A stretch of DNA of 64,000 nt from a virus, in the IMG/VR virus record IMGVR_UViG_3300017963_000014, positions 37,797-101,796 of that record, one strand, 5' to 3'. Below are positions 26,827 to 54,505 of this stretch, one piece after another. The position numbers were made by a program, and so were the translations under genes. A model generated the notes under the pieces. That model saw nothing but the letters and a program-made list of their open reading frames with translations. It did no database searches and had not been told where the DNA came from. Within the stretch, counting starts at the first letter, position 1. Every line of letters begins with the position of its first letter.

Positions 26827-27240
26827 CTAGCCGCCCTTCCGCCCGTAGACCGGGATACCGGCGACCTCGATTCGGACCCGCTTCCCCGCGCCGCCCGCGA
26901 GTCCGGAGACCTCGAAGAAGACCGACCCGGAGTGCCCGACCCGGAAGATCTTCCTCACCCCCGTATTCGCGCCGGAGAGCGCTATCGTCTGAGGCGTCGC
27001 CTCCGGGACGAACCCGCCGTTCGGGGCCCCGTTCTTCGAGGGACTCCAGAAGTGGGGCTCTATCGTCGCGGCGGTCGCGCCCCCGAGGAGCGAAGCCTGG
27101 ATAACGACCTCGTCGAAGTCCGCGCAGTTTATACCCGACTTCCGCTCGCTCGGAAGTAACGCGTCGTTCGCGTCGACCTCTCGAAATGTATTGAAGTCCG
27201 GGGCGTACGGAACGCTCGCGGTCGGGGTGACTTCGGCCAT
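26827..27240 (-). CDS. Beta-rich protein between terminase and portal
   Basis: 137 aa, not recognised. Predicted beta-sandwich (DFDEVVIQASLLGGATAATI, ...SGSVFFEVSGLAGGAGKRVR). It resembles small head-decoration or fibre-tip jelly rolls in composition. Position before the portal is unusual for a decoration protein. Confidence 0.45.
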   Translation of the reverse strand: MAEVTPTASVPYAPDFNTFREVDANDALLPSERKSGINCADFDEVVIQASLLGGATAATIEPHFWSPSKNGAPNGGFVPEATPQTIALSGANTGVRKIFRVGHSGSVFFEVSGLAGGAGKRVRIEVAGIPVYGRKGG

Positions 27241-29423: not shown

Positions 29424-30152
29424 ATGCGAAGCGAGATCGCCGCGGAGCGCGACGAGGTCCCCGAGCGGACGGAGGATGCGCTCGAGGAGGGTCGCCCGGT
29501 CCCGGCCCGGTCCCGGGCTCTAGAGGTCGCCCGGCGGGGGTTCCGGAGGTTCGCCCCGAACCAGGAGCCGAACGAGCGGAAGCTCGCGATCGCGCAGTAC
29601 CGGGCCTGCCGCGCCCTCCTCTGGACGCGCGAGCAGATCCTCGAGGAGACCGGTTGGTCGCGGCAGTGGCTAGCGTCCGTCGAGCGCCTCGCCCGGGAGG
29701 AGGACTCGGTCCTCCTCGAGAAGGGGGCGGACCCGGTCGAGATCTTCACCGAGTACCGGGAGGCGCAGCTCCTCGCCGCGCGCGAGCTCGAGGACCTCGC
29801 GCAGATCTTCCGGAGCTCGAAGCAGTTCTCGGCGCTCGTCGGCGCGGTCAAGGCGCGGTCGGAGATACTCGACAAGATCATCAAGACCGGGCAGGAGCTC
29901 GGGCTGATACGGCGGGCGGCGAAGGAGATCCGGGTCCGGGGGAAGGTGAACTACGAGACGAAGACGATCAAGGAGCTCCGGCTCCTCCTCCGCGGGGAGT
30001 TCGAGGAGATGCAGCGCCTGATCCGCGCCCCCGGCGAGGTCGTCTCCGGCCCCGCCGCCGCCGTCCTCCGGCGGGTCCTCCCCCCGGCGAACGCGGAGTC
30101 CGCGGTAAATCCGTCCCGGAAGAAACCACGGGTAAAGAAACTCGCCGGTTAA
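29424..30152 (+). CDS. Helical DNA-binding-like protein, candidate small terminase
   Basis: 242 aa on the opposite strand to the rest of the packaging operon. Helical throughout; LWTREQILEETGWSRQWLAS reads as a helix-turn-helix, followed by a coiled region (YREAQLLAARELEDLAQIFR, SALVGAVKARSEILDKIIKT) as in small terminase subunits, and a basic C-terminal tail. A transcription regulator of the structural operon is the main alternative. Confidence 0.5.
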   Translation: MRSEIAAERDEVPERTEDALEEGRPVPARSRALEVARRGFRRFAPNQEPNERKLAIAQYRACRALLWTREQILEETGWSRQWLASVERLAREEDSVLLEKGADPVEIFTEYREAQLLAARELEDLAQIFRSSKQFSALVGAVKARSEILDKIIKTGQELGLIRRAAKEIRVRGKVNYETKTIKELRLLLRGEFEEMQRLIRAPGEVVSGPAAAVLRRVLPPANAESAVNPSRKKPRVKKLAG

Positions 30153-30170
30153 CTCCGCGTCCCACCCGAA

Positions 30171-30386
30171 CTAACTTAGACCGTAGGAGGTCTCGCAGCG
30201 GAGCCAGCGGGGGCGGGGGGCCGGGTCCGTCGCGCGAAACGGTAGCGCCGGGTCGAGCTCGCGCGCGAGCGCGCGCTCCGCGCGGAGGAGGGCGTCGTCG
30301 AGCCGCCGGCGGGGTCCCGGGCGCCGGAGGAGAGCGCCGCGGGCGAGGCGGACCGCGCGGAGGGCGCGGCGGAGGTCGGCGCTCAC
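30171..30386 (-). CDS. Small Arg/Leu-rich protein
   Basis: 71 aa from GTG at 30386, whose GTGA overlaps the J-domain gene stop. Highly Arg/Leu/Ala-rich helical protein, ending RPRWLRCETSYGLS. No family. The coupled start and continuing operon support expression. Convergent with the plus-strand gene, 18 bases away. Confidence 0.5.
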   Translation of the reverse strand: MSADLRRALRAVRLARGALLRRPGPRRRLDDALLRAERALARELDPALPFRATDPAPRPRWLRCETSYGLS

Positions 30387-30625
30387 GAGAGCCCCCGGAC
30401 GAGCCCGTCGAGGAGGGCGTTCAGCTCGCCGAGGAGCTCGGCGTCCCCGCCGCGGTCGGGGTGGAGCGCGCGGTTCACCCGCCGCTGGAGCGCCCGGAGC
30501 CCCGGGACGTCGAGGACCCCCCGGAGCCGCGCGCGGGCCCCGACGAGCCCGCGGAGGAACTCGAGCTCGCGCCGGGTCGCGCGGATCGACTCGACCGCGC
30601 GGGCGACCTCGTCCCCGGGGGTCAC
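30383..30625 (-). CDS. J-domain-like protein
   Basis: 80 aa, GTG start overlapping the upstream stop. The C-terminal half reads as a J-domain core: helix LRALQRRVNRAL, HPD at residues 55-57 in HPDRGGD, then helix LLGELNALLDGL. In DnaJ proteins HPD triggers Hsp70 ATPase. No helix I is obvious, so the domain is short or divergent. A protein with DnaJ-type cysteine motifs lies two genes upstream. Confidence 0.62.
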   Translation of the reverse strand: MTPGDEVARAVESIRATRRELEFLRGLVGARARLRGVLDVPGLRALQRRVNRALHPDRGGDAELLGELNALLDGLVRGLS

Positions 30626-30921
30626 GACGCGACCCCGAGCCGGGCGGGGAGCTCCTCGAGCGCGAACGCGAGGAGCGCCTCCCGGACGCGCTCGAGCGCG
30701 CCCCCGGCGGTCGGGGGCGGAGGAGCGGGGCGGCGACGCTCCGCCGCGTCGAGCCGGCGGACGAGCTCCGCGACCTCGCGGTCGACCCGACGGAGCCCCG
30801 CGAGCCCGTGCTCGACCTCCCAGCGGAGGTTCCCGACGTTCTCCGCCGCGGACTTCCCCGCCCCGAGGCTCTCGCGGAGGACCGCGGCGAGCTCGAGGAC
30901 CTCGGTACGAAGATCGGACAT
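30622..30921 (-). CDS. Helical coiled-coil protein
   Basis: 99 aa, mostly helix with heptad-like spacing (LELAAVLRESLGAGKSAAEN, LRRVDREVAELVRRLDAAER), a Pro-rich hinge and a C-terminal helix. It sits between the two DnaJ-like genes and overlaps the J-domain start. Possibly an oligomerising partner; unassigned. Confidence 0.5.
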   Translation of the reverse strand: MSDLRTEVLELAAVLRESLGAGKSAAENVGNLRWEVEHGLAGLRRVDREVAELVRRLDAAERRRPAPPPPTAGGALERVREALLAFALEELPARLGVAS

Positions 30922-31006
30922 CCTAGACCTCCTTCCGGGTCCCGGCGACCCGCCGGGGCCCCCTCGGGGGAGGGGAGCCCGGCCGACCGCCGGTCGACCC
31001 CGCGAG

Positions 31007-31417
31007 CTACCGCTCCGCCGAGCCGGTCAGCTCGACCCAGGCCGGCTCGGAGTCGTTCCGGTAGGTACCGGCGGAGACCGCGGCGAGTCCGGCCCGGTAG
31101 CCCGCGGCGTACCAGAAGTTCGCCTCCGCGGAGACCGTCCGCGTCGTCTGCGGGCCGCGCTCGACCACCTCCCGGGCGCCGGACTTCAGCGTCCCGTCGA
31201 GGTGCGCGTCGTGGTACCCCCAGTTGAAGCGGATCCGCGGGTGGGTCAGGTCCGCCGCGCCGCTCCCGCGACAGGAGGAGCAGGTCCCGCGGCCGCGGCG
31301 ACCGGTCCCGCGGCAGGCGGGGCAGCGGGAGTCGCGGGCGAGGCGGGCGGAGAGGGTCGGGGAAGAGGTAGTCATCGCGGCCTCCTTCGGGGTTTCGGTC
31401 TTTTTCGTCGTCGTCAT
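31007..31417 (-). CDS. DnaJ-type zinc-finger protein
   Basis: 136 aa if started at the leader ATG. Two CxxCxGxG repeats, CPACRGTG (Cys32/35) and CSSCRGSG (Cys46/49), reproduce one zinc site of the DnaJ cysteine-rich domain. The rest (IRFNWGYHDAHLDGTLKSGA, FWYAAGYRAGLAAVSAGTYR) is unassigned. The predicted transcript begins at this ATG. A second in-frame ATG at 31375 has a perfect AAGGAGG site and would give 122 aa lacking the MTTTKKT leader. Confidence 0.66.
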   Translation of the reverse strand: MTTTKKTETPKEAAMTTSSPTLSARLARDSRCPACRGTGRRGRGTCSSCRGSGAADLTHPRIRFNWGYHDAHLDGTLKSGAREVVERGPQTTRTVSAEANFWYAAGYRAGLAAVSAGTYRNDSEPAWVELTGSAER

Positions 31418-31483
31418 AATTATATCTTATCATCTAGAAAGTATTTGTCCAGAGGAAAAGTGCCTCCCCCGCGATTTTTTTTT
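31391..31483 (-). repeat. Promoter-leader repeat, copy a
   Basis: One of four copies. On the minus strand: A-rich tract and GGGGGAGGC, then TGGACA (31446-31451), 16 bases, TAAGAT (31424-31429), AATTATG and the MTTTKKT-encoding leader. With that -10, transcription would start on the A of ATG. Copies a and d are nearly identical over about 85 bases. Confidence 0.75.
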
Positions 31484-31486
31484 CGC

Positions 31487-31687
31487 CTACTCCCCGCGGG
31501 CCCGCTCGATCGAGCGGTTGCAGAACTCGCGCCGGACGAGGCGCGCGAGCCGGCGGGCGTCCGCCTCCGGCCAGTCGAGGCGGAAGTGCCCCTCGAGCGC
31601 CCCCCGGGGGAGCATCCCAAGCCCGACGGCGTCGGCGACGTCCCGGACGAGCTCGGCGACGGCGGGGTTCCACGGTCGGTCTTCCAT
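31487..31687 (-). CDS. Small unknown protein
   Basis: 66 aa (MEDRPWNPAVAELVRDVADA, ...WPEADARRLARLVRREFCNR). Helical, no family. The start is preceded by GGAGGGAGGTTCGAG. It ends just upstream of promoter copy a on the same strand. Confidence 0.45.
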   Translation of the reverse strand: MEDRPWNPAVAELVRDVADAVGLGMLPRGALEGHFRLDWPEADARRLARLVRREFCNRSIERARGE

Positions 31688-31726
31688 CTCGAACCTCCCT
31701 CCGGCGGGGCGTTCCCCCGCCCGCGG

Positions 31727-32035
31727 TCAGAGCAGCGAGGCGCGGGCGTCGACCCCCGCCTCGAGCTCCGCGTCCGTCGACTCGAGGAAGCACTCGTCGA
31801 CCCCCTCGTCGAGGTACCCCTCCGCCAGCGCGCGGAGCTCCCGGGCGGAGGCGACCGCGACGAACCGCTCGCCGCCCCGGAGCGGGTAGGCGAAGGCGAC
31901 CTCCCCGAGGGGGGTCCGGGCGACGTGCGTGCAGGGACCGCCGGTCGCGTACTCCGCGCGGATCGTAACCTCCGCGTCGCGGTAGCGTTCGTGGCGACCG
32001 GAGGCGTCGAACTTCTCGAAGCGCAGCTTACCCAT
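31727..32035 (-). CDS. Unknown accessory protein
   Basis: 102 aa from ATG at 32035, overlapping the upstream gene by eight bases. Alpha/beta pattern with VTIRAEYATGGPCTHVARTP and RFVAVASARELRALAEGYLD; acidic C-terminus. No family recognised. Confidence 0.48.
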   Translation of the reverse strand: MGKLRFEKFDASGRHERYRDAEVTIRAEYATGGPCTHVARTPLGEVAFAYPLRGGERFVAVASARELRALAEGYLDEGVDECFLESTDAELEAGVDARASLL

Positions 32036-32336
32036 CGGAGACCTCCTCCGAGGGAACCCGACGGACGCCGGCGCAGAAGTCGCAGGTCCCCCCGGGGAGG
32101 GAGCGACAGTAGCAGGCGCGGTCGAGCGCCTCGGCGTCGAAGGGAAGGAACTCCTCGAGGGTAGGTTCCCAGCGCTCGGGGTCGAGGAGCGGGGTCGTCC
32201 CGAGCCAGGCCCCGCCGCGGACGGGGGCGGAGTACCAGAGCGGAGCACCTGGAGGGAAGAGGTAGACCCGGGAGTCGCGGAAGACGACCCGGAAACCGGC
32301 GGCGCGGTAGCGCGCGGCGTTCGTAAGCTCCGTCAT
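32028..32336 (-). CDS. Unknown protein with Cys-rich C-terminus
   Basis: 102 aa from ATG at 32336 (ATGA overlap). The N-terminal ~40 residues (ARYRAAGFRVVFRDSRVYLF) look folded; the C-terminus carries CYCRSLPGGTCDFCAGV, a likely zinc or metal site. Function unknown. Confidence 0.5.
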   Translation of the reverse strand: MTELTNAARYRAAGFRVVFRDSRVYLFPPGAPLWYSAPVRGGAWLGTTPLLDPERWEPTLEEFLPFDAEALDRACYCRSLPGGTCDFCAGVRRVPSEEVSDG

Positions 32337-32554
32337 AGCGGACCTCCTTCGCTTCGTAACGACTCCAGAGCATCGGGGCTCACCCAACCGAGGCGCGGGA
32401 GGTAGTCCCAGCGGGCGCCCCGGAGGAGCCGCCCCGCGTACCTCGGCGCCGCGTACCCGCGCTCGACGCGGTCGGAGAGCGCGCAGCAGACGCGGAAGGA
32501 GCGGACCCCCGCGGGCGAGCGGGAGAACTCGAGGCGACCGGGTTTACTCGGCAT
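32333..32554 (-). CDS. Small basic protein
   Basis: 73 aa, basic, with a central FRVCCALSDRVERGY segment. No family. Starts two bases after the 90 aa gene's stop and overlaps the next by ATGA. Confidence 0.45.
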   Translation of the reverse strand: MPSKPGRLEFSRSPAGVRSFRVCCALSDRVERGYAAPRYAGRLLRGARWDYLPRLGWVSPDALESLRSEGGPL

Positions 32555-32556
32555 CT

Positions 32557-32829
32557 CTACCTACCTTTCCCCGCCGCGCGGCGGCAGGAGTTCGAACCGT
32601 ACCAGAGCCCGGCGCGGTAGAGCGCGGGGGCGCAGAAGCGGGACCCGCGCGAGAGCGCGGGGATCCCGGAGCGCCTCGAGTACTCCTCCCGGCGGGCGAG
32701 GAGGTCGCTCGAACGCTCGCCCCGCGGCGGGAGGGAGCGGGTCTCGCGGTAGGTCTCCCGCTCGTCGCTCGCCATAAAAGGGCCGCCCCAGTTCTGCTTC
32801 GTCGCGGCGTCGAACTCGCGCTTCGTCAT
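32557..32829 (-). CDS. Small charged protein behind promoter copy b
   Basis: 90 aa (MTKREFDAATKQNWGGPFMA, ...FCAPALYRAGLWYGSNSCRR). Charged, probably partly disordered. Translation starts at an ATG 45 bases downstream of the degenerate leader, with a GGGGGAAG ribosome site, because the leader ATG is ATA in this copy. Confidence 0.5.
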   Translation of the reverse strand: MTKREFDAATKQNWGGPFMASDERETYRETRSLPPRGERSSDLLARREEYSRRSGIPALSRGSRFCAPALYRAGLWYGSNSCRRAAGKGR

Positions 32830-32848
32830 CGGCTTCCCCCGGCTCTCG

Positions 32849-32916
32849 GTTTCGGTCTTTTTCGTCGTCGTTATAATTATATCTTATCAGATAGAAAGTA
32901 TTTGTCCAGAGGAAAA
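32849..32916 (-). repeat. Promoter-leader repeat, copy b (leader start lost)
   Basis: Same element as at 31.4 kb: TGGACA (32903-32908), 16 bases, TAAGAT (32881-32886). The position of the leader ATG (32874) reads ATA, yet the next ~20 bases (ACGACGACGAAAAAGACC) are unchanged. The leader is thus kept as nucleic acid although it cannot be translated from this codon. Confidence 0.75.
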
Positions 32917-32923
32917 CGCACCT

Positions 32924-32947
32924 CCGTACAAATTATTTTCTGTACGG
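32924..32947. promoter_or_regulatory. Inverted repeat, candidate operator
   Basis: CCGTACA-N10-TGTACGG with an AT-rich centre (AATTATTTTC), immediately upstream of the -35 of promoter copy b. Size and symmetry fit a dimeric repressor site. No binding protein is assigned; the HTH protein at 33.6 kb is a candidate. Confidence 0.5.
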
Positions 32948-32971
32948 GGAAAGGCTAGCTAGCGAAGGGAG

Positions 32972-33451
32972 TTAGCGGTCGTAGCGGATCGTCTTCGCGG
33001 GGCCCGGGCGGGCGAGGACGACGACGGACTCGTTCCGGTCGGTCGCGCTCTTAATCCGGTAGTTCCCGCGGCGGGTCAGCTTCGAGACGCGGCGGACGAC
33101 GAAGCGCCCGGCGCCGGGGCGGCGCTCGCGGCGGAGGCGCCAGGCGAGCCCCTCGGCGCTCGAGACGGTCCGCGCGGAGGTCGGGACGCGGACGCGGGCG
33201 GCGCGGTTCGACTTCCGGACGACCGCGGGGTAGACGAGGTCGGTCCGCGCCCGGTTCTGGACGAGGAACTCGACGCTCGCGCCCGAGCGGCTCTCGCCGC
33301 TCCGGACGACGCGGACGTTCGTCGAGAGCCCCGCCCTCCGGAGCGCGGAGAGGATCGGGGCGCGACCCCAGCGGCCGTCGAGGCACCTCGCCTCCGCCGC
33401 GGGCGAGGGTAAGAGGGCGAGGAGGAGGATAGGTGAGACGAATCTACGCAT
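32972..33451 (-). CDS. Secreted basic protein, unknown
   Basis: 159 aa from ATG at 33451. A clear signal peptide (MRRFVSPILLLALLPSPAAEA) precedes a very basic, beta-rich mature region (VRVVRSGESRSGASVEFLVQ, RRVSKLTRRGNYRIKS). Export to the periplasm or outside suggests a role in lysis, envelope modification or exclusion of other phages; no family supports one over another. Confidence 0.55.
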   Translation of the reverse strand: MRRFVSPILLLALLPSPAAEARCLDGRWGRAPILSALRRAGLSTNVRVVRSGESRSGASVEFLVQNRARTDLVYPAVVRKSNRAARVRVPTSARTVSSAEGLAWRLRRERRPGAGRFVVRRVSKLTRRGNYRIKSATDRNESVVVLARPGPAKTIRYDR

Positions 33452-33532
33452 GGCCGGACTCTCCTTTCGGGTTAGGCGCCGGGGGTTAGCTAGAACCGGG
33501 CCACCCCGGAGGGGCGCGGAATCGCGGGACCC

Positions 33533-33548
33533 GGGGGCTCTAGCCCCC
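33533..33548. terminator. GGGGGC-TCTA-GCCCCC hairpin
   Basis: Perfect 6-bp stem in the spacer between the HTH gene and the secreted protein, with flanking GGGACC/GGTTCCC extending the pairing. Nearly identical stems occur twice at 39.3 kb. Likely a terminator or RNA processing structure; no U-tract. Confidence 0.55.
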
Positions 33549-33569
33549 TCCGGTTCCCGGAGAGTCGGC

Positions 33570-33812
33570 TTACGGAGCGGCGGCTCGGCGGACGCGGCGG
33601 GGGCGGCGGTCGCGGTAGGCGCGGGGGAGCCAGGCGTCGGCGTCCGAGCGGCGGACGACCCAGAACTCGCCGACGCGGGTCGCGCGGAGCCGCCCCTCCT
33701 TAATCGCCCCGAGTACCGCGGGGCGGGAGACGCCGCGGAGCGCGGCGACCTCGGAGACGGAGAGGAGCTCCGGCTCGCGTTTCCTAGGCTTCCTCGGGCT
33801 CTTCCTCGGCAC
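33570..33812 (-). CDS. Excisionase/MerR-type HTH DNA-binding protein
   Basis: 80 aa, GTG start. Classic HTH_17 pattern: LLSVSEVAALRGVSRPAVLG, AIKEGRLRATRVGEFWVVRR, SDADAWL. Basic termini. It lies divergently next to promoter copy c, so it probably regulates that region. Excisionase is less likely since no integrase is seen. Confidence 0.75.
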   Translation of the reverse strand: MPRKSPRKPRKREPELLSVSEVAALRGVSRPAVLGAIKEGRLRATRVGEFWVVRRSDADAWLPRAYRDRRPRRVRRAAAP

Positions 33813-33893
33813 GATTCCCTCACTTTCTCCTCCTATCTTAGCGAACGGAAAGCGGGGAGTAAAGGGGTCTGCGAAAAAAATCCCGCTCCCGGG

Positions 33894-33960
33894 TCGCTTT
33901 CCCCTTTACAAATACTTTCTATCTGATAAGATATAATTATGACGACGACGAAAAAGACCG
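33894..33960 (+). repeat. Promoter-leader repeat, copy c
   Basis: TTTACA (33905-33910), 16 bases, TAAGAT (33927-33932), predicted start of transcription at 33939, the A of ATG. A TATAAT also occurs at 33932-33937 but would start transcription inside the coding sequence. Leader ACGACGACGAAAAAGACC is identical to the other copies. Confidence 0.75.
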
Positions 33961-34139
33961 CGAACGATAAGGCGAACGAGGCGTTAGGTTACTTCGTCCG
34001 GAACAGCGAGCTCCCGACCGGTACCCCGACCTCCCCCGACGTCGCGGAGGCGGTCGAGAACTTCGACGGGTCGACCGCCGCCGAGAACTACCTCTGGAGT
34101 TCCCTCGAGACCGCGTTCTCGAACGCGGAAGGAGAGTAG
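33939..34139 (+). CDS. Small protein with MTTTKKT leader
   Basis: 66 aa, starting directly at promoter copy c with no room for a ribosome site, so translation would be leaderless. After MTTTKKTANDKANEALGYFV it reads as a small acidic helical protein (AENYLWSSLETAFSNAEGE). No family. First gene of a short plus-strand operon. Confidence 0.55.
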   Translation: MTTTKKTANDKANEALGYFVRNSELPTGTPTSPDVAEAVENFDGSTAAENYLWSSLETAFSNAEGE

Positions 34140-34142
34140 AAG

Positions 34143-34538
34143 ATGAGCGAGATCGCCTACGGCGCGAAGTACGACCGCTCCCTCTCGACGACCGAGATCG
34201 CCCGCCGCTTCCGCGCGGACGTCGCGGCGGAGAAGAAGGCCGGACGCCTCCCGCGGGAGCTGAAGCTCTCCGTTAAGACCCGCTACTACTCCGGCGGGAG
34301 CTCGATCGACGTCCGGATAAAGGGCCTCCCCGCGGGCTTCCCGGTCCGGAACCGCGAGGTCGCGCCGACGGCGGGGACGCTCCGGTTCGCGCCCGAGCTC
34401 CGGGAGCTGAAGGAGCGGCTCCAGGGCCTGCTCGACGCCTATAACTTCGACGGGTCCGACTCGATGACCGATTACTTCCACGTTAACTTCTACGGCTGGG
34501 TCGAGGTCGACTCGAGACTGGAGGCCGACGATGCCTAG
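34143..34538 (+). CDS. LPD29-like protein
   Basis: 131 aa. The pattern LSTTEIARRFRADVAAEKK, LKLSVKTRYYSGGSSIDVRI and GWVEVD resembles LPD29, a domain known from large polyvalent proteins that mobile elements inject with DNA, and also found as stand-alone small proteins. Its function is unknown. Good GGAGAG ribosome site. Confidence 0.5.
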   Translation: MSEIAYGAKYDRSLSTTEIARRFRADVAAEKKAGRLPRELKLSVKTRYYSGGSSIDVRIKGLPAGFPVRNREVAPTAGTLRFAPELRELKERLQGLLDAYNFDGSDSMTDYFHVNFYGWVEVDSRLEADDA

Positions 34539-34767
34539 ACCCCCTCGCCTCTCCTTCCGGCCCGACGCCCGCGTCGAGGTCCTCGCCGACGACGGCTCGG
34601 TCTACCTCGACGGGAATCTAATCGGCGCCGTCTCCCGGACCCGCCGGGGCTTCCGCCCGCTCCTCCTCTCGACGCGGACGCCGGCGGGGTCGACGCACTT
34701 CCCGACGTTCCGCGCGGCGCTCGAGGTCGTGCTCCGGAACTCGGGGGTAGAGCTGGACGATCTCTAA
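34531..34767 (+). CDS. Small beta protein
   Basis: 78 aa, overlapping the previous gene by eight bases. Beta-hairpin rich (ARVEVLADDGSVYLDGNLIG), then STRTPAGSTHFPTFRAALEV. No family. It ends at the A-tract that opens promoter copy d. Confidence 0.48.
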   Translation: MPRPPRLSFRPDARVEVLADDGSVYLDGNLIGAVSRTRRGFRPLLLSTRTPAGSTHFPTFRAALEVVLRNSGVELDDL

Positions 34768-34856
34768 AAAAATCGCGGGGGAGGCGCTTTTCCTCTGGAC
34801 AAATACTTTCTAGGTGATAAGATATAATTATGACGACGACGAAAAAGACCGAGACC
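34766..34856 (+). repeat. Promoter-leader repeat, copy d
   Basis: A7 tract, GGGGGAGGC, TGGACA (34796-34801), 16 bases, TAAGAT (34818-34823), predicted transcript start at the ATG of 34830. Near-identical to copy a, which points the opposite way. Confidence 0.75.
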
Positions 34857-34973
34857 GAGACGAAAAAGCCCTCGAATTGCAAAATGACCCCGAAAAGCGC
34901 CCTACCCTGCGCACCCGGCGCTTGCTGGAGCTACGCGTTCTGCCCGCTGAGAAAGGAGACGAACGATGCCTAG
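34830..34973 (+). CDS. 47 aa cysteine-rich protein with MTTTKKT leader
   Basis: Begins at the predicted transcript start of copy d. After MTTTKKTETETKKPS come four cysteines (17, 27, 32, 38) in NCKM...PCAPGACWSYAFCPL, a plausible single zinc site. Overlaps the next gene by eight bases. No family. Confidence 0.52.
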   Translation: MTTTKKTETETKKPSNCKMTPKSALPCAPGACWSYAFCPLRKETNDA

Positions 34974-35352
34974 CCCGAAGAAGATCCGGATCGAGGCCGA
35001 CTCCCTCCCCGCGCTCGCGGCCGCCCTAATCGCCGAGATCGAATCGGCGGCGGAGACGAACGCGGAGCGCGCGGAGGACGACTACGAAGCGACTCGGAGA
35101 AACTACGCCGCCGTCGCCGAGTTCGTCGGTACCCTTAGCGAGTACCGACCCTTCCTCGAGAGCTGCCTCGAGACCGCGCTCGAGAACGTCTCGGACTCGC
35201 AGGAGGCGATACGCGCGATCGAGGAGGAAGATCCGGACGAGGGCTGGGAACCCGCGCCGCAGTACGGCGTCCTTACTACCTGCCCGCGCTGCGGCGGCGT
35301 CCGCGACCGCGACCCGGGCGGAGGGATCTACTGCACGGAGTGCGGGCGGTGA
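34966..35352 (+). CDS. Protein with C-terminal zinc ribbon
   Basis: 128 aa. Long acidic helices (about 10-95), then a two-pair zinc ribbon, CPRCGG...CTECGR, at the very C-terminus. Such tips often bind nucleic acid or a partner protein. First of a chain of overlapping small zinc proteins. Confidence 0.58.
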   Translation: MPSPKKIRIEADSLPALAAALIAEIESAAETNAERAEDDYEATRRNYAAVAEFVGTLSEYRPFLESCLETALENVSDSQEAIRAIEEEDPDEGWEPAPQYGVLTTCPRCGGVRDRDPGGGIYCTECGR

Positions 35353-35600
35353 GCGCCCCGACCCTCCGGGAACTCCGTCGGGTAGCGGCGCCGGCCACGG
35401 TCGAGGACGACCGCCCGGCCGGTTGCTACCGCGCGACGGCTCCCAACGGCTACCGTTGGGAGCCGGGACTCCACGAGCTCGTCGCCTGGTACGAGGTCCC
35501 GTTCTTCGCGGCGGAGGCGCGCGAGGCGCTCGCCGAAGACCTCCGCGGTAGGACGCCGGAGATCTGCGACGACCCAGACTGCGACTGGTGCGAACGATGA
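35349..35600 (+). CDS. Small Cys-ending protein
   Basis: 83 aa from GTG at 35349, chosen because its GTGA overlaps the upstream stop. C-terminal CDDPDCDWCER is a candidate metal site; the rest (GCYRATAPNGYRWEPGLHEL, VAWYEVPFF) is unassigned. Confidence 0.5.
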   Translation: MSAPTLRELRRVAAPATVEDDRPAGCYRATAPNGYRWEPGLHELVAWYEVPFFAAEAREALAEDLRGRTPEICDDPDCDWCER

Positions 35601-35851
35601 AAGTAAATCACCGGAACGCCGAGGGGATCTGGTACGAGGGCGCGAACGGTTGGTTCGCCGCCCTGAAGCCGGGTCTCTGCACGGAGCCCGGGCTCCACTC
35701 CGCGCACTCCGACGAGAGCCTCCCGAGGAGAGAGGGCCTCCGGGACCTCCTCCGGAAGCTCGACGGGGCGCGCCTCTGCCGCTGCGCGGACTGCCTCGCC
35801 TTCGACCCGAACCCCGGGGACGACGACCCCGGAGGAGACCTCCTACCGTGA
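35597..35851 (+). CDS. Small zinc-type protein
   Basis: 84 aa from ATG at 35597, overlapping the previous stop (ATGA). LCRCADCLAFDPNPG near the C-terminus is a compact Cys motif; upstream GIWYEGANGWFAALKPGLCT has no family match. Confidence 0.5.
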   Translation: MKVNHRNAEGIWYEGANGWFAALKPGLCTEPGLHSAHSDESLPRREGLRDLLRKLDGARLCRCADCLAFDPNPGDDDPGGDLLP

Positions 35852-36054
35852 AGACCCCGAGCGAGGAGACCGCCTGGAGGCGGAAGAACGCCCACCGCCG
35901 CTGCCCCGGTTGCGGCGCCTACTCCCTCGAGCGGGTCCCGGGCGAACGCCTGAACCCCGAGACCCACTTCCCGGGGGTCGTCTACCGCGTCTGCGGCGGC
36001 TGCGGGTGGGAGTCGCCCGTCCGCCCGCGGAGGCGACGCGGGGGGCTACCGTGA
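35848..36054 (+). CDS. Zinc-ribbon protein
   Basis: 68 aa from GTG at 35848 (GTGA overlap). Nearly the whole protein is one zinc ribbon, CPGCGAYSLERV ... YRVCGGCGWE. Stand-alone ribbons of this size in phages may act on transcription or translation machinery; target unknown. Confidence 0.58.
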   Translation: MKTPSEETAWRRKNAHRRCPGCGAYSLERVPGERLNPETHFPGVVYRVCGGCGWESPVRPRRRRGGLP

Positions 36055-51537: not shown

Positions 51538-51744
51538 CTATCCCGGATGAGTTACCCGCACCTCGATCCGCTCGACCGGAACGACGAGGTCGAGGTCGAC
51601 CTCGTACTCGATCCCGACCTCGTCGGTCGGGACGTTCCGCGCGGGGCAGACCTCGTTCAGGCAGACGAACTTAGGCCCAGAGTCGTAGAGCCTGGAGCCG
51701 CAGGCGACGCAGAGCGGGCCCTTCGAGTAGCGGATCTCGGGCAT
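51538..51744 (-). CDS. Zinc-ribbon protein ending THPG
   Basis: 68 aa from ATG at 51744, which shares a base with the reductase stop. CVACGSRLYDSGPKFVCLNE VCPAR supplies a four-Cys ribbon. Ends VRVTHPG with the stop inside the TCATCCGGGATAGA motif, as the 121 aa gene does. Possibly a partner of the reductase, given coupling. Confidence 0.55.
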   Translation of the reverse strand: MPEIRYSKGPLCVACGSRLYDSGPKFVCLNEVCPARNVPTDEVGIEYEVDLDLVVPVERIEVRVTHPG

Positions 51745-54485
51745 CAGGAGCAGCCCGTCGTCTCGCCGCAGGTCGGGCAGCGGTGGCACGCCCCCGCGGG
51801 CTCGGTTATCGCGCCGCAGGCGGGGCAGGGCGGACCGGAGTCGAGCTCCGCGGCCCTCCGCTCGAGCGCCTCCTCGATACTCGCCGGCGCCGGCGCCTCG
51901 CCCCCGCGGCGACCGCCGGGGAAGCGGGACTCGACCCAGCGAACGACGTAGTCTAGCGGGGAGGTCGCGGACCCTATCTCCGCGTTGTCCGTGAACCCCG
52001 CCGGGTCGAAGCGACTCCGCCGGAACTTCTCGAGGATAGCGGACCAGGGGACGCCGTACTGTAGCGCGATCGAGGCGAGGGTAGCCCAGGCGTCGGTCAG
52101 GCCCCGGACGGTGCTACCCTCCTTCGCCATCAGGACGAAGAGCTCGCCGAGCCTCCCGTCGGGGTAGAGTCCGGCGGTTACGTACCCCTCGTGTCCGGCG
52201 ATCTCGAACTTGTGCGTCCTCGACTCCCGCTCCGACGGGAGCTTCTCCCGCTCGCCGGCGACGCGCGGGGGGCTCTCCGTCAAGAGGCGGTTAACGCCCT
52301 CGATTACCCTCCGGTCCTCCTCCCTCCGTACCTCGGCGTACGGGTCGCTCGCCGCGGGGCGGAGCGGCTGCGTCCCACGGCAGCCGTCGCGGTAGACGAC
52401 GACGCCCTTCAGGTCGAGCCGGTGCGCGGTCCGGAAGACCGCGTCGACGTCCTCGACCGTCGCGGAGTTCGGGAGGTTAACGGTCTTCGAGATCGCGCCC
52501 GAGAGAAGGGGTTGGACGGCGGCGAGCATCTTGACGTGCCCCTCCCACGAGATCGACCGCCCGTCCTCGCCGGCTGGGAGCGCGGCGTCGAATACCGGGA
52601 GGTACTCCTCCCGTACCCCGCCAACCGAGCCGGTCTCCGCGAGGTTTCGAATGATACGAGCCCGGTCCGACGCGCAGTACCCGAGTCGCTCGAGCGCGGG
52701 GTCGACGCTCCGGTTGAACTGAAAGACTACCCCTCCGCCCGCGAGCTCCTTCCGGGTAGCGAGCGCTAGCGCGGGCTCGACCCCGGTGGTGTCGCAGTCC
52801 ATCATCAGCGAAGTCGTCCCAGTCGGCGCGAGGAGCGTCACCTGCGCGTTCCGGAATCCGCTGTAGCTACCTTCGAGGACGTCGTCCCAGATCCGCTCCG
52901 CGGCCGCGCGGAGCTTCTTACCCGCCTCGCCGACGAAGTCGTTCCGGGAGGCGCTCGCGTGGAAACCTAGCACCCTCCGGAGCGAGTCCGCGTTTCGTTC
53001 GTACGCCTCGAACGCCCCCTTGACCCCCGCGACCTCCGCCGAGCGGCGGTAGGCGGAGGCGGTCAGGATAGACGTTACCCCCGCCGCCGTCGCCCGCGCC
53101 TCGTCCGAGTCGTAGGGGAGGCCGGCGGCCATCAGGAAGGCGCCGAGGTTCGTGTACCCGAGCCCGAGCGGGCGGAGCCGTCGAGAGTTCCGCTCGATCT
53201 CCGGCGTCGGGTAGGAGCTCCGGTCGACGAGGATATCCTGCGCGAGGATCGCCGTATCGACCGCCGCGACGAGGTCCCCGACGTCGAGCGACCCGTCCCC
53301 CGCCTGGAACCTCCGGAGGTTGAGCGACGCGAGGTTACAGGCCGAGTCCGGTACGAAGACGAACTCCCCGCAGGGATTGGAGCCGATGATCGGGCCCTCG
53401 GCCGGACAGGTGTGCGCGCGGTTCGTCGCGTCCGCGAACTGGAGCCCGGGGTCCCCGACCTCCCAGGCGGCGCGGAGGAGCTTCGCCCAGATCTCGCGGG
53501 CGTCGACGGTCTCGGCGAGCGAGCCGTCGCGGCGGTTCCGGAGGTCCCAGGAGAGCCCGCTCTCGACCGCCTGCATGAAGGCGTCCGAGACCCGGAGCGA
53601 GTTGTTCGCGTTCTGGAACGCGACCGTCCGGTAGGCGTCGGAGTCCATCCCCGAGCCGAAGCCCGCGGCCTCGAGCGCCCGGATCTTCGCCTCCTCCCGG
53701 ACCTTGCACTCGACGAACTCCTCGACGTCCGGGTGCTCGTCGTCGAGAACGACGATCTTCGCCGCCCTTCTCGTCCTCCCCCCGCTCTTGATCACGCCGG
53801 CGAAGGCGTCGAACCCGCGCATAAAGGAGACCGGGCCCGAGGCGATCCCGCCGCCGTTCAGGCTCTCGGCGGAACCGCGGAGCGGCGAGAGGTTTACGCC
53901 CGAGCCGCCGCCGTACTTGAAGATCCTCCCCTCGGTCTCCGCGAGCCTCATGATCGACTCGAGCGAGTCGTCGACCGAGTTGATGAAGCACGCGCTCGAC
54001 TGCGGCCGCTCCTCGATCCCGACGTTGAAGTAGACCGGCGAGTTGAACGCGAGCCGCTGCGTCCCGAGGAGGAACTGAAGCTCCTTACGGAAGATCGAGC
54101 GCCCCTCCTCGTCGAGGTACCCGTCGCGGAGCCCCCAGTCCGCGATCGAGTCGGAGATCCGGCAGATCATCGTCCAGACCGAGGACTCGCGCTCCGGCGT
54201 CCCGAGCCGGCCGCGGAGGTACTTCGAGGCGACGACGCGGACGGCGGTGTCGCTCCAGGAGACCGGAGCCTCGACCCCCGCCTGCTCGAAGACGACCCGC
54301 CCGTTCGTCGCGTCCTCGATCCGGACGTCGCGCCGGGACCAGGGACCGACGAGTTCGTAGACGTCGGCGGACTCCGGGACGAAGTACCGCTCGACGCGAA
54401 CGCGCCGTGCCTCCGACTCCCGGATCGGATTCGGGGCGACCTCCTCCATCACCTCTATCGGGTTCGGCGTGGATACGGACGACAT
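51744..54485 (-). CDS. nrdJ: Class II (B12-dependent) ribonucleotide reductase
   Basis: 913 aa from ATG at 54485 with AGGAGG upstream. Radical-type reductase core: RLAFNSPVYFNVG, QSSACFINSVDDS, GGGSGVNLSPLRG, IIGSNPCGEFVF, PTGTTSLMMDCDTTGVEP. The C-terminus carries VEDVDAVF..., an AGHEGYVTAGLYPDG TSCPD-like domain, and CPACG...CHRCPTCGETTGC zinc/redox tail. It reduces ribonucleotides using adenosylcobalamin, so the host must supply or import B12. Confidence 0.92.
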   Translation of the reverse strand: MSSVSTPNPIEVMEEVAPNPIRESEARRVRVERYFVPESADVYELVGPWSRRDVRIEDATNGRVVFEQAGVEAPVSWSDTAVRVVASKYLRGRLGTPERESSVWTMICRISDSIADWGLRDGYLDEEGRSIFRKELQFLLGTQRLAFNSPVYFNVGIEERPQSSACFINSVDDSLESIMRLAETEGRIFKYGGGSGVNLSPLRGSAESLNGGGIASGPVSFMRGFDAFAGVIKSGGRTRRAAKIVVLDDEHPDVEEFVECKVREEAKIRALEAAGFGSGMDSDAYRTVAFQNANNSLRVSDAFMQAVESGLSWDLRNRRDGSLAETVDAREIWAKLLRAAWEVGDPGLQFADATNRAHTCPAEGPIIGSNPCGEFVFVPDSACNLASLNLRRFQAGDGSLDVGDLVAAVDTAILAQDILVDRSSYPTPEIERNSRRLRPLGLGYTNLGAFLMAAGLPYDSDEARATAAGVTSILTASAYRRSAEVAGVKGAFEAYERNADSLRRVLGFHASASRNDFVGEAGKKLRAAAERIWDDVLEGSYSGFRNAQVTLLAPTGTTSLMMDCDTTGVEPALALATRKELAGGGVVFQFNRSVDPALERLGYCASDRARIIRNLAETGSVGGVREEYLPVFDAALPAGEDGRSISWEGHVKMLAAVQPLLSGAISKTVNLPNSATVEDVDAVFRTAHRLDLKGVVVYRDGCRGTQPLRPAASDPYAEVRREEDRRVIEGVNRLLTESPPRVAGEREKLPSERESRTHKFEIAGHEGYVTAGLYPDGRLGELFVLMAKEGSTVRGLTDAWATLASIALQYGVPWSAILEKFRRSRFDPAGFTDNAEIGSATSPLDYVVRWVESRFPGGRRGGEAPAPASIEEALERRAAELDSGPPCPACGAITEPAGACHRCPTCGETTGCS

Positions 54486-54505
54486 CAATCCTCCTATTAT
54501 CTTCT

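Follow-up and report, generated by a model that had tools for sequence, protein, structure and literature searches.

Among bacteriophages, reports of leaderless mRNAs usually concern single genes. Transcripts starting at the AUG itself are described for lambda cI and for cI and cro of PY54, the latter mapped by RACE (PMC4488713); these are single regulatory genes, whereas at the locus described here one class of promoter recurs ahead of many small genes. In Cluster O mycobacteriophages, the available text of one report (PMC4351075) predicts leaderless SigA promoters (PL1, PR2 and PL2) that, like those described here, are of sigma-70 type, place the predicted +1 at the first base of the gene and occupy AT-rich gaps within an otherwise GC-rich genome, but that text presents few promoters and describes neither a repeated leader cassette nor an in-frame second start. 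In mycobacteria, an RTG (ATG or GTG) at +1 is both necessary and sufficient for leaderless initiation, while in Escherichia coli GTG is reported to be weak as a leaderless start (PMC4633059). In Deinococcus-Thermus host genes, a -10 region (TANNNT) only a few bases before the open reading frame yields leaderless mRNA (PMC12340547); the phage class adds a -35 element, a TG extension, a spacer motif and a second start led by a Shine-Dalgarno (SD) sequence.

Two further systems resemble parts of this arrangement. The E. coli 5'-uAUG mRNAs (Beck et al. 2016, PMC4965119) also combine a 5'-terminal AUG with a downstream SD-led start and are reported to function as both leaderless and leadered messages. 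In the cases tested there, however, the upstream reading frame is out of frame or closes before the gene, whereas in the phage class it is in frame and open in 25 of 25 instances, belongs to one repeated promoter family and may begin with GTG. Start Associated Sequences, found in Cluster K mycobacteriophages and Cluster EF Microbacterium phages (PMC3203893, PMC7302621), are likewise gene-start repeats with a lineage-specific consensus, but they sit at the SD before the start codon, while the repeat described here is a promoter ending at the start plus a translated leader. For this reason, and because the consensus is unlike GGGATAGGAGCCC, membership in that family was rejected.

Here we describe a class of sigma-70-like promoters in an uncultured phage and its relatives. 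We consider it likely that these are promoters for host RNA polymerase that yield leaderless mRNAs, most of them with a second, in-frame SD-led start. The window, meaning the whole stretch of 64,000 nucleotides analysed, corresponds to positions 37797-101796 in a virus record of 101,796 bases with a G+C content of about 70%. Judged by its matches to sheath, tape measure, portal and terminase, the record is a myophage; further genes matched are class II ribonucleotide reductase (RNR), DNA polymerase B, DnaB, ThyX and a DNA methyltransferase. The closest relative of the RNR (51744-54488, -) in the phage set belongs to an uncultured 485 kb phage, at 41% identity. Named phages hold no DNA similar to the region or to copy c, and homology did not lead to the host, as TerL has no relative in genome_contigs and the RNR matches are too distant to assign one. 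The genes that copies a-d would drive are small, mostly of unknown function, and placed upstream of the large terminase gene. A stretch at 34143-34538 (+) weakly matches phrog_10415 and phrog_1926, the latter described as 'released from the phage upon host infection'. A small HTH_17 protein encoded between copies b and c (33570-33812, -) is a candidate regulator, with a counterpart by the terminase region of a relative (L008:4324-4557); upstream of its gene, at 33820-33880 (-), TAAGAT abuts AGGAGG and is preceded by CTTTCC, perhaps the remnant of another copy of this promoter.

The original prediction had placed four copies of a promoter and leader element in this region, and all four were recovered, their -35 hexamers beginning at 31451 (-), 32908 (-), 33905 (+) and 34796 (+) (Table 1). 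A promoter scan of positions 30000-36000 returned exactly four sigma-70-like matches, which are copies a-d, where 0.2 were expected. The shared parts also agree: a 16-base spacer, TAAGAT, ATAATT, the triplets ATG, ATA, ATG and ATG in copies a to d, and then the 18-base tag ACGACGACGAAAAAGACC; a TG one base before the -10 is present in 4 of 4. Taking the -10 hexamer as -12 to -7, the predicted +1 is the A of ATG or ATA in all four. Two gene starts could be refined. The ATA of copy b stands as described, and its gene start downstream is most likely ATG 32829 behind GGGGG; the leaderless ATG proposed for copy a also stands, but a second in-frame ATG at 31375, behind AAGGAGG, had been missed. Intrinsic terminators around the four copies are fewer than in shuffled sequence.

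Table 1. Predicted features of the four promoter copies (window positions)
Feature	Position	Strand	Remark
Promoter a: TGGACA, 16-base spacer, TG-extended TAAGAT	31424..31451	-	
Copy a ATG at predicted +1, putative leaderless start of ORF 31007-31417	31415..31417	-	sequence
Copy a tag ACGACGACGAAAAAGACC, encoding TTTKKT	31397..31414	-	
Copy a Shine-Dalgarno AAGGAGG serving the second in-frame start	31381..31387	-	
Copy a second in-frame ATG, +1 plus 42 nt	31373..31375	-	
Promoter b: TGGACA, 16-base spacer, TG-extended TAAGAT	32881..32908	-	
Copy b +1 triplet ATA, no longer a start codon, and unchanged tag; frame open	32854..32874	-	
Copy b GGGGG, SD-like via one G-U pair with CCUCC, 6 nt before ATG	32836..32840	-	sequence reading
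Copy b gene from ATG 32829, 90 aa, no family match	32557..32829	-	
Promoter c: TTTACA, 16-base spacer, TG-extended TAAGAT	33905..33932	+	
Copy c putative leaderless ORF, 66 aa, ATG at +1, tag 33942-33959	33939..34139	+	
Promoter d: TGGACA, 16-base spacer, TG-extended TAAGAT	34796..34823	+	
Copy d putative leaderless ORF, 47 aa, ATG at +1, tag 34833-34850; overlaps the following ATG 34966	34830..34973	+	
Repeat unit of copy a, 91 nt, matching copy d at 97%	31391..31481	-	apparently a recently copied cassette
Copy d repeat unit, inverted partner of 31391-31481	34766..34856	+	

The class extends well beyond these copies. TerL alignment led to viral contigs at 64-71% identity, to which L042 and L043 were added by DNA-pattern scans, and a motif scan of the fetched stretches found 33 promoters in 8 viruses, with TerL identities of 66-72% where TerL is known and with records that are in part fragments: 6 in this phage, 10 in G006, 5 in G007, 3 each in L007/L008 and G003, and 2 each in G005, L042 and L043. 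Shuffled window sequence never exceeded 2.6 bits, whereas this phage's own copies reach 47-51; the motif was trained on 19 of the 33 sites, whose own scores are not independent. The virus-weighted consensus is tTTtcc.cTggACA.aTTCTTtcta..TG.TAAGAT.a.A.TRTGA, and it fits the pattern of sigma-70 extended -10 promoters (a -35-like hexamer, a 15-18 bp spacer and TGn before TANNNT). An alternative -10, the TATAAT inside TAAGATATAATTATG, was rejected because in relatives that position reads GAGAGT or GATAAT, with TAAGAT unchanged. The two promoters of this phage that lie outside the window precede a UvrD-like helicase (ATG at +1) and a serine recombinase (L005:14603-15352, -; TAG at +1). Eight promoters in G006 form an array of single-gene units, all pointing the same way across 6 kb (G006:C1:55726-61440) and each preceding a small gene. 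L043 (JALGZR010000161.1), a contig in a bacterial MAG bin with two class promoters and in-frame SD starts, may be a mis-binned phage contig or may provide a host link.

The -35, TG and -10 elements are enough for sigma-70 type recognition, but parts of the spacer are more conserved than sigma-70 requires: TT at -23/-22 is invariant, so an extra factor may be involved. The TTC at -26 to -24 is also well conserved, there is a T-tract at -42 to -40, and base -13 is identical across all copies of each virus, G007 excepted. These features would suit a phage-encoded activator or sigma-like factor that reads the TTCTTTC spacer and the T-tract and defines a temporal class like the T4 middle promoters, as would the HTH_17 gene adjoining copies b and c and the similar gene near TerL in L008. 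We regard this as possible, though rather unlikely. Sigma factor domains PF04542 and PF04545 are absent from the four genomes searched (G000, G003, G006 and G007, whose records are possibly incomplete), and promoters of a phage-encoded sigma factor were rejected on this ground; the single-subunit RNA polymerase profile PF00940 had no match, but no control gave signal either. Copying within genomes would, moreover, equally fix the -13 base in each virus. Promoter cores resemble one another more closely inside one virus (0.857) than across viruses (0.687; 0 of 2000 permutations), a likeness that within-genome copying or homogenisation would produce, and the copies may also co-evolve with a regulator.

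Along with the promoter, the class keeps a start codon. In 29 of the 33 copies an RTG (21 ATG, 8 GTG) stands exactly 6 bases after TAAGAT, at the predicted +1, which was assigned by -10 spacing alone; counted by offset from the -10 (0-14), RTG occurs at 6 in 21 sites and at every other offset in 0-3. At +1, A and G alternate while the following T and G are constant, a pattern expected of a start codon and not of an initiator motif. No SD could precede this codon, because the -10 region lies directly upstream, and the 29 copies thus have the start codon at the predicted +1 with no SD before it. In every copy with a +1 RTG, the coding frame is that of the RTG. The four exceptions are one ATG placed one base earlier and three triplets other than RTG (TAG, ATA and ATC). 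The first stretch of the predicted mRNA is AT-richer (0.49 versus 0.31) and its folding is weak (mean -5.4 versus -17.4 kcal/mol over 50-base stretches). The leaderless transcripts and the phage regulon that had been proposed from the four copies thus both gain support, at the level of sequence, from the position and frame of an ATG or GTG at the predicted +1 in 8 related viruses. Given the reported weakness of GTG in E. coli (PMC4633059), its presence at +1 also suggests a host capable of robust leaderless initiation.

A second start accompanies the first in most copies. Searching within 63 bases, and leaving the GGGGG of copy b uncounted as an SD, we found an SD-led ATG or GTG downstream of the upstream start in 25 of 30 copies, as in the 5'-uAUG-plus-SD arrangement, and each of the 25 shares the frame of that upstream start, 18-51 bases further on. 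Among non-redundant leaders 19 of 19 are in frame, for which (1/3)^19 = 9e-10, although shared descent leaves fewer independent events than 19; as a control, among 154 ATG or GTG triplets standing 18-51 bases before the ordinary SD-led genes that these viruses also carry, 23 are in frame and open. Leader lengths differ only by multiples of three. Natural variants follow the same rule. In G006 17718, with its ATG one base earlier, the SD start keeps the frame of that shifted codon, while in G005 27982, with ATC at +1, the SD start is out of frame, and its sister at 26933 (ATG) is in frame. The open frame of copy b despite its ATA is what would be expected of a recent loss.

This arrangement suggests that viral genes of the class have two ways of beginning protein synthesis. 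A more ambitious version, in which long forms made by leaderless 70S initiation and short SD-led forms would vary in ratio with the state of the ribosomes during infection, so that the genes would still be translated if either pathway were impaired, with a phage co-factor coevolving with the copies, strikes us as unlikely. It is distinctly unlikely, we think, that only the SD-led start matters, the +1 RTG being a promoter by-product whose frame is kept to make leaderless initiation harmless. The frequency of SD starts would fit that explanation, as would their retention in copies that have lost the +1 start codon (in copy b, by our reading of GGGGG), the recombinase copy included. The orthologous helicase also fits: 71-92% identical and bearing the promoter in four viruses, it has a conserved core behind N-terminal leaders that differ (though G003 and L042 resemble each other there), and in distant pairs similarity starts near or after the second Met. 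Yet no SD-led second start was found in five copies (two in G006 and, in this phage, c, d and the one before the helicase), which would then have no start at all and which appear to depend on the one at +1, and R-T-G is held in 29 of 33 although ATA, ATC and TAG are evidently possible there.

The tag itself fared differently from the start codon. The original prediction saw in it a common 5' element conserved as DNA or RNA, independently of translation, that controls stability, initiation or antitermination, and its identity over 18 bases in four copies, ATG-less copy b included, together with the AT-rich, weakly folded leaders, gives that idea some appeal. In the window it has 4 exact occurrences and no others at up to 3 mismatches (0.12 expected), and an exact search of viral_contigs found none. 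Sought in the rest of the genome and in relatives, as the prediction had proposed, the tag proved to be missing from 2 of this phage's own 6 promoters, both outside the window, and to differ between viruses, while promoter and start are kept: within any one virus the promoters of small genes carry a near-uniform tag, and other viruses have another. Leader peptides read MTTTKKTE here, MSKTTESK and MRTTKETQ in G006, VSGKKD in G007, and MSNGGKK and MNNGENG in L008. The prediction had itself counted a leader varying in relatives as evidence against it, and such variation is what we find for the tag; the feature that persists is the open reading frame from +1. The changes of leader length by whole codons likewise speak against an untranslated function, and a regulatory RNA was rejected because Rfam has no match in the window and the tag is not common to different viruses. 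Copy a resembles copy d over 91 nt and copy b over 69 nt, stretches that take in sequence upstream of the -35, which indicates that part of the similarity reflects recent copying. Recent copying or homogenisation within the genome fits the shared tag better than a conserved RNA element, which we hold to be very improbable.

The units of copies a and d, as inverted repeats, flank 3.28 kb, and recombination between them could invert the segment. That the copies are operators, origin repeats or recombination sites with only incidental promoter likeness is scarcely credible: this inverted repeat and the phage's own serine recombinase would accommodate it, but each copy is directed into a gene with an RTG at constant distance, and the clustered copies of G006 and G007 keep a single orientation.

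In the explanation that we favour, promoters for host RNA polymerase yielding leaderless mRNAs, the polymerase with its housekeeping sigma factor would read each copy, built of the upstream T-tract, TGGACA or TTTACA, a 16-base spacer with TTCTTTC and a TG-extended TAAGAT, as a strong and presumably early promoter. With the start codon fused to the promoter, transcription would begin at the first base of ATG or GTG, and ribosomes would be able to initiate at the 5' terminus of the mRNA, whose opening stretch is rich in A and folds weakly. A second, SD-led ATG or GTG 6-17 codons downstream in the same frame would offer most of these mRNAs another start and possibly two N-terminal forms of the protein; copies lacking the SD would use the leaderless start, and copies lacking the +1 start the second. 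The cassette would serve the small genes upstream of terminase, the helicase and the serine recombinase, and its copying or homogenisation inside each genome would account for the common tag.

In this uncultured phage group a whole promoter class thus holds a start codon at the predicted +1 together with an in-frame SD start. From the class one can predict small-gene starts, and with them N-terminal variants, that will be misassigned by gene callers, and its natural mutants separate the +1 start from the SD start, so that pairs with ATG versus ATC at +1, or in frame versus out of frame, are at hand for testing how one mRNA accommodates leaderless and leadered initiation together.
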